Shown here piece after piece: positions 1,844-59,763 of a stretch of DNA of 64,000 nt (position 1 is its first letter; every line of letters begins with the position of its first letter). The notes below the pieces were generated by a model. That model did no database searches. It worked only from the letters and a program-made list of their open reading frames with translations, and was not told the origin of the DNA. The translations under genes were made by a program, and so were the position numbers. The stretch is from NCBI GenBank assembly GCA_001788795.1, contig MFXH01000001.1, positions 1 to 64,000 on the forward strand, read 5' to 3'. This stretch comes from Candidatus Peregrinibacteria bacterium RIFOXYA2_FULL_41_18 (GTDB lineage: Bacteria > Patescibacteriota > Gracilibacteria > UBA1369 > UBA12470).

Positions 1844-4800
1844 ATGAGCAATCGAAATAAAAAAATCATTGCAATATCAACATTGGCGATAATAACGCTA
1901 AGCCAATTTCAAATGATTGCGCATGCAAGTAGTAATCCGGTTGTAACAGTCGAAGATCCGATCTATCAAACAGAAACATGTGAAGGAATAGATGAAGATG
2001 ATGAATATACATGGCCATGGCATTCTCACAGCTACACAAATACCTCGGGACCTACTCGCGGAGTTGAATATTGGGCATATTTCAGTGAATTAAGAATCTT
2101 ACTGGATGATGAATTCATGGATTACGTAGACTTAGACAGCATGCTGTGTACAACAAATGTCACAGGTTCATATGTAAGTTGCGACGGAGGTAGTTACCGC
2201 CAAGACTCAGACACAACTGTAACGGTCACATTAGACGAATCAGACCAATACATAGAATGGAGCTGGGGATCTGATTCATCTGACTGGCCATCAATAGCTG
2301 GAGATATGTACAGCAGTGATGAAAGAGATGGCGTAACTTACGAACAAACGGTAGAAAAAGGAGTAAAATTCAAATTTAAAGATGATGCCCCAAGCGGAAT
2401 AACGGTTACAACAAATTCCGAAATATACATGATCTTATACACATGGACAGAAGATGATGAATGGGAAAGATCCGACACGGACTGGGGAGATTGGCATTGG
2501 AATACAGACTCCGCACCGGTTTCAACAACCTACGAATGCGAAGAAGAAGAACTTTACTGCGCCGACCTAGAAATGTCCCCCACAACCCTAACAGCCGAAG
2601 AAGCAGAAGGCACAGTAACAGTGGAAGCTTCATCAGTTGATCAAAACGGTGATGACTGGGAAGACGCAGAAGATTTCGAAGAATATAAGTATTGGGCGGA
2701 GAACGAAGAGGGAGACGACTCAAGCGGAACTTTTCGAGAAAATTATTTGTCCGGATTTCCGGGAGGCACAGGCAATCCGCTCGAAACGGAAGACAACAAG
2801 GTTTATTACTACAATGGCGATGCCGGAGATACGATTTACGTTTGTGCGGTTAACTCCGCAGGCAATTGTATTTCAGACTGCCGCGCCAGCGTCGCAAGCG
2901 AATCCGCACCGGTAACGTGTACAGACCTCGACCTAACTCCAGACTCTCTTACATCAGATGAAGCGGAAGAAGACATTGAACTAAATATCGAAGCAACAGG
3001 CAGCGATGGAAACAATTGGACAGACGCAGATGAATTCAACGGATACTATTACTGGGCGGACTCTTATGTCGGAGACACCGCAATAGGAGAATTTTTTGAC
3101 ACATGGATTTCTTGGTCGGGTTCAAACCCATTCACAGACTGGGATGAAACAGCCTACTACAAAAACGGCGAAGCGGGCGACACCATAACCGTCTGCGCCC
3201 TTGATACATCAGGACAATGTATAGACGCATGTACGGATTCTGTCTCAAGCGACGTGCCATCAGTAGACTGCGACAACCTCACGATTACAGCTCCGGCAAC
3301 ATACAACAGTTCAACATTAACCGCATGCTTCGACATAGACGTTGAAGAATACAACACAGACGGATCTGAAAGAGACGGTATAATCTGCTACGAAGCAATA
3401 GACTTTGCGACAGGTACAAGAACAACGCAAGGTACGTTCTCGGACGGCACAAGAACCGCAGTCGGACGTATCTGTACAAGAAACGATGTCGAATACTGCA
3501 ACGGAAATCAAGGAGATACTATAACTGTTTATGATCAAACTTATCCGACAATTTGTTTGGATACGCTTGAACATAACTTCTGCGGCGATGCGATTCCGCA
3601 ATCACCAAATGATGATGGACAAACCGAGCAATGCGACGACGGAAATGATGTAGATACGGATAGCTGTTCCAACACATGTACGACTCCAAGCGGTCCGGGC
3701 GGAGATGACAATCCGGGAGGCGACAGCGGTCCAGGTGGCGATAGTGGACCGGGAGGTGACTCAGGTCCGGGAGGCGACAGCGGACCGGGAGGAGACTCAG
3801 GTCCGGGAGGCGATACAGCTCCGGGCGGAGACACAGGCCCAACACCAACAAATCCGGAAGCGGGCGAACTTGAAAAAGAAGCACAATCTTACAACTTCAC
3901 AATATATGGTTCGGGCACTGCAGATTCGGCAATACTCGCCCACGATGAAGACTACATTTATTACACATTGACCTACACGGCAGGGTCATCCGACGAAGTG
4001 ACAATCACAGACTCTATCGCATCGGGAGGGATAGATGGAAGCCTCGGCATCGGATCTTATCTTTATTACGAGTCAGGCTCCTTCTCAATCACTCCAGCAA
4101 TTTCAATATGCGCAGAAGAATCAACAGAAACTTGCTATGAACTAGCAAGCTCATCCAATCCGCTAGCAGGAATTACAATAAGAAATTTAACAGAAGGATA
4201 CAGCTTAGAAATCAACTATACGGCAAGAGTCGATTCCAATCTCGACTGCGACAATCCTCCAGAAGGAGTTTGTCTTGCAGAATCATACATAAACGAAGCT
4301 GAAGCCCAAGAGATAGAAATAGAAAACCCTCTCACGGCCTACTCGACAGTCACAGTTATCTGTCCTTACGTCCTGACGAGAAACGCAGGAGATGTTTATC
4401 TTGAAAACCAACTCGATGCCGGAACAAACATCCTTTGCATCGCAAACGATTTTGCAAATTCTGACGGTATAGTTCTGGTCGCTCAAGAACTTGACTCAAT
4501 ACCACTTGAAACAATTCTCAACAGTTTCTCAAGCTACATTACGGAATTATTTTACGCCACTCAAGACGACTGGCTCGTTGCAAGCATCATAGAATCATCA
4601 GAAAACCACATCGCAAGAGCGATGTACAATTTCAACACAATAACTCCCGTAACAACCGATATGACGGCAACAGACTGGGATGACCTTGAAGCACTTAAGA
4701 ACGAAAATAATCTTGCAGAAGAAATTTATTATTTCGATGGAAATAACAATACAAACGATCTGACAATCGGCGACGGATCCAACTTCACAGTCCCACAAGG

Positions 4801-5242
4801 CGCACACACAATCATAGTCGAAAACGGAGATCTTTATATCCAATCAAACATCAAATACATAGATGCGAATTTCGGATTTAATTACTACCTGTATGAAAGC
4901 GATGCTGACTATACAGCTCTCGCATCACTCGCAATAATCGTCTTAAACGGAGACATCTACATAGATCCGAACGTAACAGATTTATCAGGAGTTTTCTATA
5001 TGGATTCCGGATCAATGCAAAGTGAAGGTGGCGTAACAAGAGGCGCAATCGGCGACCAACTTAGAATTTACGGCTCTGTTTACGGCGATATTGACCCGAT
5101 TATCGAGGACAGCGGATTCGTAGGCCCTCCGGAACTTGACCACGGTTCGATTGTAATAAGATATGACGAAAGAGTTATTTTGAACACTCCGCCGGCAATT
5201 TCGGAATACATTGATGTATATTCCGAAAAAACAGCCAGATGA
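1844..5242 (+). CDS. Large secreted modular protein with Cys-rich repeats and a Gly-Pro-Gly-Gly-Asp linker
   Basis: The 1132-residue protein starts with a signal peptide (hydrophobic core about residues 8-20, likely cleavage after AHA near 28). Three related Cys-containing beta-type modules follow at roughly 238-355, 358-470 and 475-578. Each begins C-x-(D/N)-L and holds a YYxxGxxGDTIxVC-like strand. Residues about 579-615 match the Myxococcus-type Cys-rich repeat (DUF4215): CGDAI, then [19 protein letters not shown] linker of (GPGGDS)n spans about 616-665 and separates a DUF11-like adhesin region from a C-terminal beta domain. No sortase motif or C-terminal anchor is visible. The ATG follows a TTTAAATAAATC leader without a Shine-Dalgarno sequence. 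The stop overlaps the next gene by 4 nt (ATGA), so the two are probably coupled. A role in cell-surface adhesion is inferred. Confidence 0.85.
3694..3840 (+). repeat. 18-bp tandem repeat coding for (GPGGDS)n
   Basis: Near-identical 18-bp units of the type GGTCCGGGAGGCGACAGC repeat about seven times inside the secreted-protein gene. They encode a flexible Gly/Pro/Asp linker between the DUF4215 module and the C-terminal half. Third-position changes between units show that it is not a very recent expansion. Confidence 0.85.
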
Positions 5243-7529: not shown

Positions 7530-7557
7530 AGGTCATAAGTCTTAAGTCTTACAACCT
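7530..7557. repeat. Heptamer array, AGGTCGT/AAGTCTT family
   Basis: The units AGGTCAT, AAGTCTT, AAGTCTT and ACAACCT run at period 7 immediately after the holA stop. The same word family occurs at 27942 and 42048, each time beside a nonamer array. Confidence 0.75.
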
Positions 7558-7565
7558 CTCTTTTT

Positions 7566-7610
7566 CACTATGTCACTTCTTCAACTTCCCCTACTTCTTC
7601 AATAACTTCC
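7566..7610 (-). repeat. Nonamer array (CTATGTCACTTC family) over the glnA stop
   Basis: The + strand reads CACTATGTCACTTC, then 9-bp units built on ACTTC (ACTTCTTCA, ACTTCCCCT, ACTTCTTCA). The glnA TGA (7599-7601) lies inside. In the gene sense the array ends GAAGTGACATAGTG. Confidence 0.85.
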
Positions 7611-17559: not shown

Positions 17560-18422
17560 AAGAAGCAATCACAAACCTTTGGAGAAACAAATTTCTCTCT
17601 CTCGCCACCATAGTCGTAATGGGGCTTATTTTGTTTATTTTCAATATAATTCTCACTCTCAACATAATCTCAAAAGCGATCATCGACGACATTTATAAAC
17701 AAGTCGATATAATCGCATATCTTAACGACGACGCCGACATTTTTACGGTAAATATGCTTATAGAAGATATAAAATCCATCAAGTCCGTAACAGACGTAGA
17801 ATACACAACGAAAGAAGAAGCACTCGAAGATTACCTCTCGATCTATCCGGATCAAGGAAATCCTTTTGATTCATATGGGTTGGAAAATCCTTTGCCGGCA
17901 AACATTCAAATAACAACCACTTCTCCGGAAGACCACCAAGCAATCAACTCAATACTTGAAGAAAAAGAGTATGCATCGCTTCTAATGACAACCGTGGACA
18001 ACTCCGAAAACCAATCTCTTGCAGACAAGGTTCTCGCAATCGGAACCTACACGAAAAACCTAGTGCTTCTCATAATGCTTATTTTCATCATCACAAGTTT
18101 CATCATCATATTGAATGCAATGCACCTTACGATCTACACACGAAGCAAAGAAATAGAAATAATGCAGCTTGTCGGCGCTCCGATAAGATTCATCAAATGG
18201 CCGTTCATAATCGAGGGTATGGCAATAAGTCTGTCGGCCGCACTGATAAGCTTATTCTTAATATTAACATTCATAGCGAATCTCAATATGCCGATAGCAA
18301 TTTCCGAATTGGCTGACTTGGGGAAACTGGGTATAATCGCAACCTTTCAGGTAATAATAAGCATTTTCATAGGAGTATTTAGTAGCAATATGGCGATTGA
18401 AAGACACCTGAGAAGAAGTTGA
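17511..18422 (+). CDS. ftsX: Cell division protein FtsX
   Basis: FtsX is the membrane subunit of FtsEX, which activates peptidoglycan hydrolases at division. The 303 residues show the family layout: a cytoplasmic N-terminus with SLKEAITNLWRNKFLSLATI, helix 1 (about 30-52), an extracellular domain (about 60-175) with VDIIAYLNDDADIF and the LP-x-x-I region (ENPLPANIQI), and three C-terminal helices around TRSKEIEIMQLVGAP. FtsE is not adjacent, which is unusual. The stop codon lies inside a nonamer array. Confidence 0.92.
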   Translation: MQLPSGDLRKHLGRSLKEAITNLWRNKFLSLATIVVMGLILFIFNIILTLNIISKAIIDDIYKQVDIIAYLNDDADIFTVNMLIEDIKSIKSVTDVEYTTKEEALEDYLSIYPDQGNPFDSYGLENPLPANIQITTTSPEDHQAINSILEEKEYASLLMTTVDNSENQSLADKVLAIGTYTKNLVLLIMLIFIITSFIIILNAMHLTIYTRSKEIEIMQLVGAPIRFIKWPFIIEGMAISLSAALISLFLILTFIANLNMPIAISELADLGKLGIIATFQVIISIFIGVFSSNMAIERHLRRS

Positions 18423-18447
18423 AGAAGTTGCAGAAGTGACATAGTAG
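18411..18447 (+). repeat. Nonamer array over the ftsX stop
   Basis: In the gene sense: GAAGAAGTT, GAAGAAGTT and GCAGAAGTG, then ACATAGTAG. It is the same word family as at 7566 but on the opposite genomic strand, and so has the same orientation relative to its gene. The ftsX TGA (18420-18422) is inside. Confidence 0.8.
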
Positions 18448-24132: not shown

Positions 24133-24174
24133 TTCTGCTTTCTGTGTCTTGTGTCTTGTGTCTTGCTCTCTACT
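24133..24174 (-). repeat. Heptamer array, TCTTGTG family, over a gene stop
   Basis: The units TTCTGCT, TTCTGTG, TCTTGTG, TCTTGTG, TCTTGCT and CTCTACT run at period 7. The TAG of the 331-residue gene (24170-24172) lies inside. Confidence 0.85.
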
Positions 24175-27214: not shown

Positions 27215-27982
27215 TTAATACGATTGGCTTGCAGAAGGGAAAATGCCCTTTTCCACATCCTCTTTATACCTCTCAATCGCATTTTTCGCCACCTCATGTA
27301 AATCCGCATACTTGCGCAAAAACTTCGGCTTAAACTCAGGATTTAAACCGAGCATATCGGGCAAAACCAAAACCTGCCCATCACAATCCGGCCCTGCACC
27401 TATACCAATAGTAGGAATTTTCAATTCATCTGTAATCTTTCGCCCCAAATCCGCAGGCACACACTCAATCACAACAGAAGACGCGCCAGCTCTTTCAATC
27501 GCACGCGCTTCCTCCAAAATATGATCACCCTTTTGAACCTTAAACGAATCTGCCTCCTGCGGTTTCAGTCCCGTATGCCCCATGACCTCAAAACCCGCAT
27601 CAACCAAAGCCCTAACCAACTCAGGCTTCCCTTCGATTTTCATACAGTTACAACCCGTCTCATCCTTAACGCGCCTAGCATCCGCCAAAACACGCTCCAC
27701 GCTAACACAACTCTCAAGTGGCAAATCGCAAACAACCATAGCCTTCTTAACGCCTTTCATAACAGCTCCCGTATGCCTAATCATATCTTCAATCGTCACC
27801 TCCTTCGTATCACGCGCACCAAATACAACCATTCCTAGCGAATCTCCAACCAACACAATATCGATTCCGGCTTCATCAACAACCTTAGCCATCAAATAAT
27901 CATAAGCCGTCAAAGCCGAGATCTTCCGAACCCCTTTTAAATGTCGTAAATCGTAAGGCATAGGTCGTAAGTCGTAAGGCAT
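27215..27982 (-). CDS. panB: Ketopantoate hydroxymethyltransferase with repeat-derived N-terminus
   Basis: PanB adds a hydroxymethyl group from methylene-tetrahydrofolate to alpha-ketoisovalerate, the first step to pantothenate. The barrel signature is clear: ALTAYDYLMAKVVDEAGIDI, VLVGDSLGMVVFG, EDMIRHTGAVMKG and PTIGIGAGPDCDGQVLV. Its first 14 residues (MPYDLRPMPYDLRH) are a translated heptamer array and do not resemble the normal N-terminus, so the start could be either array-encoded ATG (27982 or 27961). It heads the panB-panC-coaBC operon. Confidence 0.94.
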   Translation of the reverse strand: MPYDLRPMPYDLRHLKGVRKISALTAYDYLMAKVVDEAGIDIVLVGDSLGMVVFGARDTKEVTIEDMIRHTGAVMKGVKKAMVVCDLPLESCVSVERVLADARRVKDETGCNCMKIEGKPELVRALVDAGFEVMGHTGLKPQEADSFKVQKGDHILEEARAIERAGASSVVIECVPADLGRKITDELKIPTIGIGAGPDCDGQVLVLPDMLGLNPEFKPKFLRKYADLHEVAKNAIERYKEDVEKGIFPSASQSY

Positions 27983-27983
27983 A
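27942..27983 (-). repeat. Heptamer array, AGTCGTA family, coding the panB N-terminus
   Basis: The + strand units TGTCGTA, AATCGTA, AGGCATA, GGTCGTA, AGTCGTA and AGGCATA run at period 7. Three units make 21 nt, which gives the repeated peptide MPYDLRP. Confidence 0.85.
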
Positions 27984-27992
27984 GATCTTTCT

Positions 27993-28043
27993 CACTATGT
28001 CACTTCCTCAACTTCTCCAACTTCCCATACTTCCCCTAGTAAC
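27993..28043 (-). repeat. Nonamer array over the stop of the Yip1-like gene
   Basis: CACTATGTCACTTC leads into the units ACTTCCTCA, ACTTCTCCA, ACTTCCCAT and ACTTCCCCT. The TAG at 28036-28038 is inside. Confidence 0.85.
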
Positions 28044-28683: not shown

Positions 28684-29601
28684 TTATCCTATTAACCGCT
28701 CACCTGCAAATTTCGCCCCGACAGCAGTTGCATACTCGGCATTTTCAGGAACAAAAACTTCAAGTCCATATCCTTCAATAATATCCTTCACAACCGCCAA
28801 AATCGCATCAGCCTTGGTCAGTTTACCAATCAAAACGATAGAAGATAACCCTTCCGACTTGGCGGCAAAAACAGCAGAAATACCTATAGTTTGTCCTATA
28901 AGATTAACAATACCGGCGGCAAGATCCTCTTTTTTAAATTTAATCTCATCTCTAAGCCGTCCGAAATTCGAAGCCGTCGCCTCCCCCGAAACACGCCCGA
29001 TATCACCACCAACTATATCGGAAACAGAAACATCAACTTTTTTACTCGAACCTTTAGCAGCAATCTTAAGAAGCTCATCTACATCCGACACGCCCAGCAG
29101 TTCGCGCCCCAGTCCAACAAAAGTTCCCCCTCCAACCCCCGTCCCACCAATATGTTTAATAACTATGTCACTTCTTCTACTTCTGCCTTCTGCCTCATGC
29201 CTCATGCCTTCTTTCACACTAACCATGCATGTCCCAGTTCCCATACTGACGACAAGTCTATTCGAATATCGAATACCGAATTTCGAATTTCGACAACTCC
29301 CTTCTACCTCTTCTCGGCATTCGGTATTCCGTATTCCGTATTCAACCCCAATCGCATCTATCTCCGACACTTTCACTACAGGAACACCATTAACACTATC
29401 CGCAAAAAACCTGCTCTTTCCTCCGGTAACAAAAATCTTATCAACCCCACTCAAAGAAATCCCTGAAAATTCAAAAAAACTCTCAAAATTCAAAGCAGGA
29501 ACATCTTTAGACTCATAAGTCTTGATAGACTCAATCAAGTCACCATTCCACAAGACGGCATCAACAGTCGAACCGCCAAAATCAAGAGATATAACTTTCA
29601 T
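28684..29601 (-). CDS. coaW: Type II pantothenate kinase with in-frame repeat insertions
   Basis: The 305-residue Fumble/CoaW-type kinase phosphorylates pantothenate to start CoA synthesis. It has the phosphate-binding ISLDFGGSTVDAVLW, then VVSMGTGTCMVSV, GGTGVGGGTFVGLGRELLG, SIVLIGKLTKADA and AEYATAVGAKFAG. Two surface segments are built from repeats. One is YGIRNTECR...CRNSKFGIRYSN (about residues 87-114), from two CGGTATT-family heptamer arrays. The other is EGMRHEAEGRSRRSD (about 131-145), from a CATGCCT heptamer array plus a nonamer array. The core motifs are intact, so the enzyme is probably active. The gene is close to panB-panC-coaBC. Confidence 0.9.
   Translation of the reverse strand: MKVISLDFGGSTVDAVLWNGDLIESIKTYESKDVPALNFESFFEFSGISLSGVDKIFVTGGKSRFFADSVNGVPVVKVSEIDAIGVEYGIRNTECREEVEGSCRNSKFGIRYSNRLVVSMGTGTCMVSVKEGMRHEAEGRSRRSDIVIKHIGGTGVGGGTFVGLGRELLGVSDVDELLKIAAKGSSKKVDVSVSDIVGGDIGRVSGEATASNFGRLRDEIKFKKEDLAAGIVNLIGQTIGISAVFAAKSEGLSSIVLIGKLTKADAILAVVKDIIEGYGLEVFVPENAEYATAVGAKFAGERLIG
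29163..29181 (-). repeat. Nonamer-family copy inside the pantothenate kinase gene
   Basis: CTATGTCACTTCTTCTACT is identical in style to the 3'-end copies and has the same orientation relative to the gene. It is translated as part of RSRRSDIV. Confidence 0.8.
29182..29209 (-). repeat. Heptamer array, CATGCCT family, inside the pantothenate kinase gene
   Basis: The units TCTGCCT, TCTGCCT, CATGCCT and CATGCCT are in frame and give EGMRHEAEG. The same array and peptide occur at 43845-43872. Confidence 0.85.
29259..29293 (-). repeat. Heptamer array, ATTTCGA words, inside the pantothenate kinase gene
   Basis: The units TATTCGA, ATATCGA, ATACCGA, ATTTCGA and ATTTCGA are translated in frame. Confidence 0.8.
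29315..29342 (-). repeat. Heptamer array, CGGTATT family, inside the pantothenate kinase gene
   Basis: The units CGGCATT, CGGTATT, CCGTATT and CCGTATT are translated as part of EYGIRNTECR. It is nearly the same as the array at 47887-47914 after groES. Confidence 0.85.
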
Positions 29602-38482: not shown

Positions 38483-38525
38483 CACTATGTCACTTCCCCT
38501 ACTTCTCATACTTCTTCTTACAACC
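38483..38525 (-). repeat. Nonamer array over the dnaA stop
   Basis: CACTATGTCACTTC is followed by the units ACTTCCCCT, ACTTCTCAT and ACTTCTTCT. The dnaA TAA (38518-38520) lies inside. Confidence 0.85.
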
Positions 38526-40411: not shown

Positions 40412-40446
40412 CTCTGCTGTCTGTGTCTTGTGTCTTGCTCCTTACC
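40412..40446 (-). repeat. Heptamer array, TCTTGTG family, over the rseP stop
   Basis: The units CTCTGCT, GTCTGTG, TCTTGTG, TCTTGCT and CCTTACC run at period 7. The rseP TAA (40442-40444) is inside. In the gene sense it starts TAAGGAGCAAGACACAAGAC. Confidence 0.85.
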
Positions 40447-42047: not shown

Positions 42048-42096
42048 TAAGTCGTAGGTCATAGGTCGTAGGTCATAAGACCTATGTCTTACACCT
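42048..42096 (-). repeat. Heptamer array, TAGGTCG family, upstream of rseP
   Basis: The units TAAGTCG, TAGGTCA, TAGGTCG, TAGGTCA, TAAGACC, TATGTCT and TACACCT run at period 7 within 15 bp of the rseP start. Confidence 0.88.
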
Positions 42097-42124: not shown

Positions 42125-42169
42125 CACTATGTCACTTCTCATACTTCCCCTACTTCTTCTACTATATCT
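42125..42169 (-). repeat. Nonamer array over the frr stop
   Basis: CACTATGTCACTTC is followed by the units ACTTCTCAT, ACTTCCCCT and ACTTCTTCT. The frr TAG (42162-42164) lies inside. Confidence 0.85.
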
Positions 42170-43552: not shown

Positions 43553-43918
43553 TTACTTTGTCAGCAAAAAATAAGTCACAGCAATTCCAATCGTAATCCC
43601 CAATATAAAAACTATCGGCAACTTCCTCTCGGTCTGTCCGTCATGCGCATTTGCCAAATCGCTCAGAAGATTCGTACTAATCACAACTTCTTCCTCGCTG
43701 TTTCTCTCAACAACATCAAGGAAACTGTGATTCGCAACCAGCTTCACAAACCTACCAAAAGTAATCTTAACCTTTCCGGCCGGCTCAATTTTCTCTTCAG
43801 CGCAAACCTCTTCGGAAGCGGGAATATCATTCTCTTTTTCACTTGTGCCTTCTGCCTCATGCCTCATGCCTTCTTCATTATCTTCATCATCTTCATCAGG
43901 GAATTTTATATCATCCAT
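43553..43918 (-). CDS. Small tail-anchored protein with repeat-derived segment
   Basis: From ATG 43918 (MDDIKFPDEDDEDNEEGMRH) the product is 121 residues. It has an acidic N-terminus and a central segment (KVKITFGRFVKLVANHSFLD). One C-terminal membrane helix (about 98-119, LPIVFILGITIGIAVTYFLL) follows. Residues about 15-24 (EGMRHEAEG) come from a CATGCCT heptamer array and are identical to a segment of the pantothenate kinase. An upstream frame to 43966 is not favoured. Function unknown. Confidence 0.68.
   Translation of the reverse strand: MDDIKFPDEDDEDNEEGMRHEAEGTSEKENDIPASEEVCAEEKIEPAGKVKITFGRFVKLVANHSFLDVVERNSEEEVVISTNLLSDLANAHDGQTERKLPIVFILGITIGIAVTYFLLTK
43845..43872 (-). repeat. Heptamer array, CATGCCT family, inside a CDS
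   Basis: The units TGTGCCT, TCTGCCT, CATGCCT and CATGCCT are followed by TCTTCAT. They are read in frame as EGMRHEAEG. Confidence 0.85.
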
Positions 43919-43986: not shown

Positions 43987-44012
43987 ACTATGTCACTTCC
44001 CCTACTCCCCTC
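43987..44012 (-). repeat. Nonamer-family copy downstream of the CNB/GAF gene
   Basis: ACTATGTCACTTCCCCT then ACTCCCCTC, lying beyond the TCTTGTG heptamer array at 44015 in the gene sense. Confidence 0.75.
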
Positions 44013-44014
44013 TT

Positions 44015-44049
44015 TTCTGCTGTCTGTATCTTGTGTCTTGCTCCTTACC
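44015..44049 (-). repeat. Heptamer array, TCTTGTG family, abutting the CNB/GAF stop
   Basis: The units TTCTGCT, GTCTGTA, TCTTGTG, TCTTGCT and CCTTACC end 1 bp before the TAG (44050-44052). Confidence 0.85.
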
Positions 44050-44961
44050 CTATATCCCCACTCTCTGTTCTTTCAATCTCACCCTCTCCTTCTCGCCCTG
44101 AGTGCTGTAATGCCTTTCATAAGCCATTCCAAGCTGTTCGGTAACCGCAATGGCAAGTTTAATCTGCTCATCTTCGAATTCACCTTTTGAATCAAACAAC
44201 ACAACCAATCCGAAAAATTTTCCTGAAAAATTTCTAATACCAAGCCACAATAAATTGCCATCATGCAAATATCTCAAACTCGAATCATCAGTGAACAACT
44301 TTGCCTTATCCGCAACAGAACTCTGAGCAAGACCGACAAATGCAGAGTCCGCATCGGAACTTACAGCAAGCACATCCTCTTTTTGCATCGCCAAGTTGTG
44401 CAAGAAAACCATCCCCGCCTCGCAACTGGTCATATCAACAAACTTCTTAAGAACTTCAGAAGAAACAGTCCTTAGATCATCAGGATTACTACCTATGATT
44501 CTCATAACATCATAAAGTGCTATCAATTCCGAATTAACATATTGCAATCTCGCATTAACAACCTTAACGATTTCAATAAGCAATCCTGCGGCATAAGCCG
44601 GATTTTGCTTGAGAAATTTCTCAAAATCTTCTCTGCGAAGCACGCACAGGGAAACATCTGTAAGAGCCTGAGCTGACGCACCTCTCGACTTATCAGACAA
44701 AAGCGCACCTTCCCCGAAAATTCCACCATGCTCAAGGACTGCCAATATTTTCATTCCACCGGAAACGTTCTTAACAATCTGAACTTTTCCTTCAATAACA
44801 ATATACAATTCGGAATTTTTATCACCCTCCTTAAACACAACATCTCCGGCCATAAATCTTTTAATCTCACATAAGGAATTAAGAGAATTGAGCATCATCT
44901 CAAGCTCTTCACCTTCTAGTCCGATAAAGCATTTTTTTAAGGTTTCTTTTAAGTCTTGCAT
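44050..44961 (-). CDS. Cyclic-nucleotide-binding and GAF-domain sensor
   Basis: In this 303-residue protein, residues about 15-125 form a cAMP/CRP-type effector domain (FMAGDVVFKEGDKNSELYIV, GGIFGEGALLSDKSRGASAQ with the phosphate-binding GEGALL). A linker helix and a GAF-like domain (about 150-285, ending FGLVVLFDSKGEFEDEQIKL) follow. There is no DNA-binding domain. Its start overlaps the pilT stop (TAATG), so the two are translationally coupled. It may gate twitching motility or pilus retraction in response to a nucleotide; this is inferred from context only. Confidence 0.85.
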   Translation of the reverse strand: MQDLKETLKKCFIGLEGEELEMMLNSLNSLCEIKRFMAGDVVFKEGDKNSELYIVIEGKVQIVKNVSGGMKILAVLEHGGIFGEGALLSDKSRGASAQALTDVSLCVLRREDFEKFLKQNPAYAAGLLIEIVKVVNARLQYVNSELIALYDVMRIIGSNPDDLRTVSSEVLKKFVDMTSCEAGMVFLHNLAMQKEDVLAVSSDADSAFVGLAQSSVADKAKLFTDDSSLRYLHDGNLLWLGIRNFSGKFFGLVVLFDSKGEFEDEQIKLAIAVTEQLGMAYERHYSTQGEKERVRLKEQRVGI

Positions 44962-46122: not shown

Positions 46123-46151
46123 AGAGGAGAACCTTTTCCGGCTCCCCTCTT
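46118..46151 (-). terminator. Rho-independent terminator after groEL
   Basis: On the minus strand AAGAGGGGAGCC pairs with GGTTCTCCTCTT (two G-U pairs) around GGAAAA, then TTTT. Confidence 0.85.
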
Positions 46152-46152
46152 A

Positions 46153-47847
<1,695 letters not shown>

Positions 47848-59706: not shown

Positions 59707-59708
59707 TC

Positions 59709-59736
59709 AGTAAGGAACAAGACACAGACAGCAGAG
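59709..59736 (+). repeat. Heptamer array, TCTTGTG family, after speB
   Basis: AGTAAGG, AACAAGA, CACAGAC and AGCAGAG form the same gene-sense word as after rseP and the CNB/GAF gene, 3 bp beyond the speB stop. Confidence 0.85.
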
Positions 59737-59763
59737 GGGAATTCCACTCTCTTTTTTTCACAT

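Follow-up and report, generated by a model that had tools for sequence, protein, structure and literature searches.

The peptide EGMRHEAEG, which is carried by two unrelated proteins of Candidatus Peregrinibacteria bacterium RIFOXYA2_FULL_41_18, is probably (roughly 0.7) encoded by a degenerate tandem word from a genome-wide set, whose copies spread by template switching and are filtered by selection. The words are dispersed copies that have been amplified in this lineage. Those of two families, A and B, stand mostly after stop codons in the sense orientation, and some copies lie in variable coding segments. The window, i.e. the whole analyzed stretch of 64,000 nucleotides, belongs to a 1.24 Mb genome in 20 contigs (99% complete, 0.6% contamination). 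By translation, EGMRHEAEG is in frame on the minus strand in both a 305-aa pantothenate kinase (PanK) and a 121-aa tail-anchored protein:

28684..29601, minus strand: type II PanK gene, 305 aa (Pfam PF03630; PDB type II PanK)
29180..29212, minus strand: AGGCANR heptad array (family C) in PanK, in the segment after VSMGTGTCMVSV, read EGMRHEAEGRS; absent from homologues
29161..29183, minus strand: family A word GAAGTAGAAGAAGTGACATAGTTA directly after the heptad array, in frame as RSRRSDIVI, with GAAGTGACATAGT at 29162-29174
29261..29345, both orientations: family E arrays (ATTCGNN heptads) in the PanK segment before VSMGTGTCMV, which is longer than in homologues
43553..43918, minus strand: gene of the small tail-anchored protein, 121 aa, with EGMRHEAEG in a variable acidic N-terminal linker (translation; orthologs in relatives)
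43846..43874, minus strand: AGGCANR heptad array (family C) in that gene, read EGMRHEAEG (lag-7 scan; pattern search)

The sequence CATGCCTCATGCCT has exactly two matches in the window, at 29196-29209 and 43858-43871, where shuffles predict 0.03. The identity extends over 29 bases, GCCTTCTGCCTCATGCCTCATGCCTTCTT (29185-29213 = 43847-43875), the 29-base DNA common to the two genes being AAGAAGGCATGAGGCATGAGGCAGAAGGC. BLASTP of PanK against the tail-anchored protein returned GMRHEAEG with a few residues, a chance 11-residue match, and nothing else. Thus the original prediction, that one repeat places the same peptide in two unrelated proteins, was correct, and the wider homology that would have spoken against it was not detected by this comparison. 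Two of the three sense frames through the 29-mer (KKA* and RRHEA*) carry a TGA stop and the third, EGMRHEAEG, is free of stops, as are the three antisense frames. Because the C word has a single open sense frame, a tolerated sense copy with this unit order always yields EGMRHEAEG. The identity of the peptides is therefore a consequence of the DNA word that needs no protein-level cause, and it is no evidence for a function of the peptide.

Beyond the original prediction, there is a third in-frame case: GMRHEAEGRS in an RlmD/TrmA-like RNA uracil methyltransferase on contig C10. The pattern AGGCANRAGGCANR (AGGCANR twice) has 53 matches in 23 places genome-wide (reversed control, 1). The RlmD array occupies ten residues versus seven in relatives, and the stop codon of this gene is supplied by the family A unit GAAGTAG. 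A loop of a Mur ligase holds a family B word, read SKTQDTDSR, with a few extra residues compared to homologues. The homologues of all four proteins (PanK, the tail-anchored protein, RlmD and Mur ligase) have other sequence where the words stand. The tail-anchored protein matched no Pfam family; orthologs with the C-terminal membrane segment are found in most sampled relatives, across the order, and the linker is 48 aa long versus 49 and 46 aa in two same-family genomes. From these alignments, native sequence seems to have given way to the array, with little net change in length, in two or three of the proteins other than PanK (the tail-anchored protein, RlmD and the Mur ligase). In the tail-anchored linker, replacement is indistinguishable from insertion plus loss. 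A change in the number of 7-base units would shift the frame in PanK, RlmD or the tail-anchored gene. Non-coding repeats are thus seen to feed new segments into conserved proteins, the same word giving the same peptide in unrelated enzymes.

The PanK gene (Pfam Fumble, 81.5 bits; PDB match to type II PanK) holds words of three families. Alignment with homologues showed that two altered segments flank the invariant VSMGTGTCMV. The first, with E words, is 31 aa long versus 14-19 aa in the closest homologues; the second is ~20 aa versus 10-14 aa and holds a second word family, A, beside the C array, the insert being a composite of C then A. These loop positions come from the alignment only; the single-sequence AlphaFold model has a pLDDT of 33. 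In the PanK of a sister genus (G001), each of the same two segments holds another repeated word, GACTGCAAGACACAGA...GAGAGCAG. This ~40-base word (L007) is present in two copies, one on either side of VSMGTGTCMV. Between the two genera, then, the sites in PanK appear to stay and the word to change.

The lag scan covered 295 kb of the genome, with shuffles as control. It found 51 lag-7 arrays (3.3 in shuffles) and 30 lag-9 arrays (2.6 in shuffles), but only 11 and 9 arrays at lags 6 and 8. Family C is AGGCANR, with 7 bases. Family B, GTAAGGAGC-(AAGACAC)n-AGACAGCAGA, has a 7-base unit and fixed boundaries. Family A, (GAAGTNRRR)n, has a 9-base unit, ends in the 8-base GTGACATAGT and is at times found with the 8-mers GTGACATA. 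Family D is GTCRTAR and family E is ATTCGNN. The arrays are 20-70 bases long and mostly non-palindromic; families A, B and C are purine-rich with no common hairpin seen, and only family E is partly self-complementary. At two loci (L060 12529; L227 1350), the end of family A is a tandem octamer array of three to four GTGACATA, and units of 7, 8 and 9 bases lie side by side in one family A element. A different kind of coding repeat is found at 3692-3837 of the window, where a 1132-aa ORF (1844-5242) contains an in-frame 18/36-base tandem repeat, GGTCCGGGAGGAGACACA.

Most words lie outside the coding regions, close behind genes. In the window, the following post-stop elements and family B words were mapped:

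43987..44050, minus strand: composite post-stop element (family B, then A) in the spacer from the upstream stop (gene at 44050-44961) to the tail-anchored gene
42126..42164, minus strand: family A post-stop element, then a GTCRTAG heptad array at 42051-42077
27943..28038, minus strand: family A post-stop element with a GTCGTAA/AGGCATA heptad array
7530..7600, minus strand: family A post-stop element, then a GTCNTAA array
46150..46196, minus strand: family A post-stop element, 9-mers then 8-mers GTGACRTA
38484..38518, minus strand: family A post-stop element
18420..18445, plus strand: family A post-stop element
40418..40446, minus strand: family B word GTAAGGAGC-AAGACACAAGACAC-AGACAGCAGA
24140..24167, minus strand: family B word array, AAGACAC three times
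59707..59740, plus strand: family B word, one unit

Placement was analyzed over about 295-350 kb of the 1.24 Mb (about a quarter of the genome), with genes taken as longest-ORF calls in which small errors of start and end are likely. Within -60 to +120 of a stop codon lie 37 of 45 copies of family A, compared to 16% of random places. Of these 37, 35 run in sense with the gene, usually ~28 bases past the stop, and a distance of no more than about 60 bases from the stop holds for most copies of this family. Family B is placed in the same way (14 of 15 near a stop, 13 in sense) and family C more loosely (13 of 23 near a stop, 10 in sense). TAG is the stop codon in 19 of 27 genes followed by A versus 70 of 258 others; this excess arises because the stop is often part of the A unit GAAGTAG. 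Post-stop words follow roughly every tenth gene sampled. Many other C copies stand at the 3' ends of genes and encode the C-terminal residues: a formyltransferase, for instance, ends in ...GERRQKAEGMRHRS and a glycosyltransferase in ...GGRDEAEGMSKK. Identical C DNA is also found in non-coding places and in other frames. In the same-family genome G001, the spacer corresponding to 43987..44050 is shorter and lacks the composite element. The sense-strand bias after stops is the least explained part of the data and exceeds what neutral patching would give unless selection or a transcript-linked process acts. It may come from selection, the antisense strand of the word offering no stop codon, or from such a process. 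Sense placement after stops, often giving the stop codon, is unusual at this frequency and points to a mechanism linked to gene ends.

Two arrays elsewhere in the genome have other surroundings. On contig C12 (L055 11135-11260), a ten-unit AGGCANR array followed by ATTCGNN words adjoins, in antisense, the 3' end CCATAAGCCGGGTTCTGT of an apparent RNase P RNA gene, recognized by eye only. At L056 1355-1410, a pseudopilin-like ORF (MNKEIGKRQKAEGMSKAAFTLLE) opens with an AGGCANR array, overlapping the 3' end of the ORF before it; the array may form a new N-terminus.

Outside this genome, the words are absent from relatives or rare in them. The family A pattern GAAGTGACRTAGT has 97 matches here (reversed control, 0) and 1 in 58 relatives. 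The B core matches 26 times here but only 2 and 1 times in the two genomes of the same family, and never in 27 more genomes of the order. A longer AGGCANR pattern has 30 matches here; of 285 additional genomes from the phylum, two have one match each. In the sister genus G001, other words are used (TTAGGAC/T, GTAGTTA, GAGAGCA), less densely, and arrays are few in G002, where 280 kb contain ten lag-7 runs. With different words in G001, few in G002, and A, B and C rare in relatives, the vocabulary is lineage-specific and turns over. Family B was probably already present at a low level in the family before its amplification here. In other phyla, the AGGCANR heptad is common, with at least 114 tandem stretches (in cyanobacteria, Acidobacteria, Bacteroidota, Chloroflexi, Planctomycetes and others), which raises the question why certain heptads keep being generated. 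One genome of an unrelated phylum, the Balneolaceae genome G352 (via L110), has 67 tandem AAGACAC matches together with AGGCAGA arrays. Transfer of whole blocks from this genome is unsupported, since the flanks of its AAGACAC arrays differ from those here. General sharing of a vocabulary across phyla was also rejected: AAGACAC arrays occur in only 1 of 39 genomes picked for AGGCANR arrays. Remote phyla have nothing but the heptads in common with this genome, which suggests a de novo origin as a further possibility for some words.

Evidence that blocks are copied comes from family B and from the composites. At the tandem sites of family B, a non-repeat boundary GTAAGGRNC stands upstream in 10 of 13 (0.0012 expected per site), and a CAGACAGCAGA-like boundary downstream in 9 of 13. 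In the few composites found, the order is fixed: B or C comes first and A second, never the other way round, and words of D, E or F come after A. The conserved boundaries show that blocks were copied, and neither they nor the fixed order would be expected if slippage had acted independently at each site. The claim of direct evidence that repeats move or are copied between genes thus holds as to copying and dispersal, given the 23 AGGCANR places here and almost none in the phylum, the conserved boundaries and the homologues without arrays. It does not hold as to the route: the peptide identity is forced by the one stop-free sense frame, and the pool is largely intergenic and post-stop, which does not point to transfer from gene to gene. 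The proposed comparison with empty sites gave homologues without arrays at the coding sites, and clean empty sites in part only.

These observations can be accommodated by a mechanism with three steps: i) slippage of the replicating strand would expand and shrink the arrays; ii) a replication or repair intermediate would switch template at short homology and patch a piece of word array over the local sequence, in the manner of gene conversion and with no dedicated enzyme; and iii) selection would retain only copies that stand behind a stop codon or provide one, and copies in frame within a tolerant loop or linker, harmful copies being lost. Template switching is inferred because native sequence appears to be replaced without net insertion, and because Pfam profiles for a reverse transcriptase (RVT_1, PF00078) and for a REP-type transposase (Y1_Tnp, PF01797) found no match in the genome. 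The absence of these two domains leaves room for other enzymes.

The words could instead be born at each site, slippage-prone heptads arising independently and a polymerase or structural preference repeating the same words without any copying. The AGGCANR arrays of many unrelated phyla (at least 114 stretches) and the Balneolaceae AAGACAC arrays, whose flanks are unlike those here, are consistent with this, as is the finding, credited to Mrazek 2007 in PMC4679880, that heptamers are the top repeat class in many bacterial genomes and are ascribed to slippage. Birth in place is nonetheless unlikely to be the main process here, in view of the conserved B boundaries, the long A unit with its fixed end GTGACATAGT in 97 copies and the fixed order of families in composites. 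The same block copying with fixed ends might be the work of an enzyme, acting through a transposase or via RNA on very small mobile elements (like the Nostoc SDRs or non-autonomous REP/RPE-type elements). The strong sense orientation to the upstream gene is what a transcript-linked process might give, and in-frame copies in unrelated genes are also known from Rickettsia palindromic elements (PMC10969869). Against such elements stand the absence of a reverse transcriptase domain and of a Y1 REP-type transposase from the genome, and the nature of the units: they are 7-, 8- and 9-mers repeated in tandem, their number varies, and most of them lack a palindrome. Furthermore, at PanK and RlmD, where native sequence is replaced, no target-site duplication was seen by eye. 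Enzyme-driven movement is accordingly also considered improbable.

Two further explanations have very little probability. A peptide selected for itself, as a binding motif shared by unrelated proteins with the DNA similarity secondary, might account for its presence in three proteins, but the DNA is identical over 29 bases, synonymous positions included; the same DNA also occurs in non-coding places and other frames; the other two sense frames are closed by stops; and homologues of all three proteins lack the peptide. Selection at the peptide level was rejected on the identical DNA, the closed frames and the non-coding copies. Wider homology of the two genes, or an artefact of assembly, is equally remote: BLASTP yields the repeat peptide only, both sites are internal to long contigs and flanked by intact genes in a genome of 99% completeness and 0.6% contamination, and assembly errors are unlikely to produce short arrays (20-70 bases) that vary in sequence.

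Copying by template switching followed by selection is therefore preferred. A bolder reading, which is possible but doubtful, is that strand-oriented post-stop elements of ordered 7-, 8- and 9-base words spread without an encoded mobility enzyme, rewrite gene ends through their stop codon and feed in-frame segments to unrelated proteins, with a vocabulary that turns over between genera. The spread of such elements might be linked, for example, to termination of transcription or translation or to replication restart.

REP/BIME elements and MITEs are dispersed extragenic repeats, often near the 3' ends of genes, and are palindromic and transposase-linked. The words share with them the dispersed extragenic placement at 3' ends, but no Y1 transposase (PF01797) was found here. 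Of the terminal inverted repeats and target-site duplications typical of MITEs, none was seen by eye at PanK and RlmD. The small dispersed repeats (SDRs) of Nostoc (Elhai et al. 2008, cited in PMC4390886) are reportedly 20-30-base units, copied as blocks and often found beside tandem heptamers, with a conserved secondary structure and defined insertion sites. The words resemble them as block-copied short dispersed units but differ in that no common hairpin was seen in families A, B and C; nor does the genome have a match to PF00078, the reverse transcriptase expected of SDR-type or other retro-mobile elements.

The closest likeness of the word set is to the short tandemly repeated repetitive (STRR) heptamers of cyanobacteria, among them the TDNGATT and NNTGAGT classes found in the P6b loop of the Nostoc trnL intron, which can switch class (PMC4476775). 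In both, the units are 7 bases long and degenerate, with a constant core and one or two variable positions; several classes occur per genome, mainly in non-coding DNA; and one loop switches word class between related lineages, as the PanK segments do. The 7-base tandem excess (51 versus 3.3) and the several lineage-specific degenerate word classes are thus found here as well, but in a small-genome lineage outside the cyanobacteria, together with 8- and 9-mer words whose ends are fixed, a strong preference for the sense strand after stops and in-frame copies in conserved proteins. The TAACTGA heptamers of the Beggiatoaceae (MacGregor 2015, PMC4679880) also form many short, lineage-specific, mostly non-coding arrays in which the stop codons of one orientation limit coding use; these are a single word just upstream of start codons, whereas the words here follow stops in ordered composites. 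The Rickettsia palindromic elements (PMC10969869) are likewise dispersed repeats that stand in frame in unrelated metabolic genes and give the same peptide, as family C does in PanK, the tail-anchored protein and the RlmD-like methyltransferase, and family B words also stand in frame in the Mur ligase. Those elements are ~150 bp palindromes with a conserved ORF; the arrays here are purine-rich tandem words of 20-70 bases with no common palindrome, well short of a ~100-150 bp palindromic unit. By analogy, then, the word set would work like the cyanobacterial heptamer repeats, and its in-frame intrusion like that of the Rickettsia palindromic elements.
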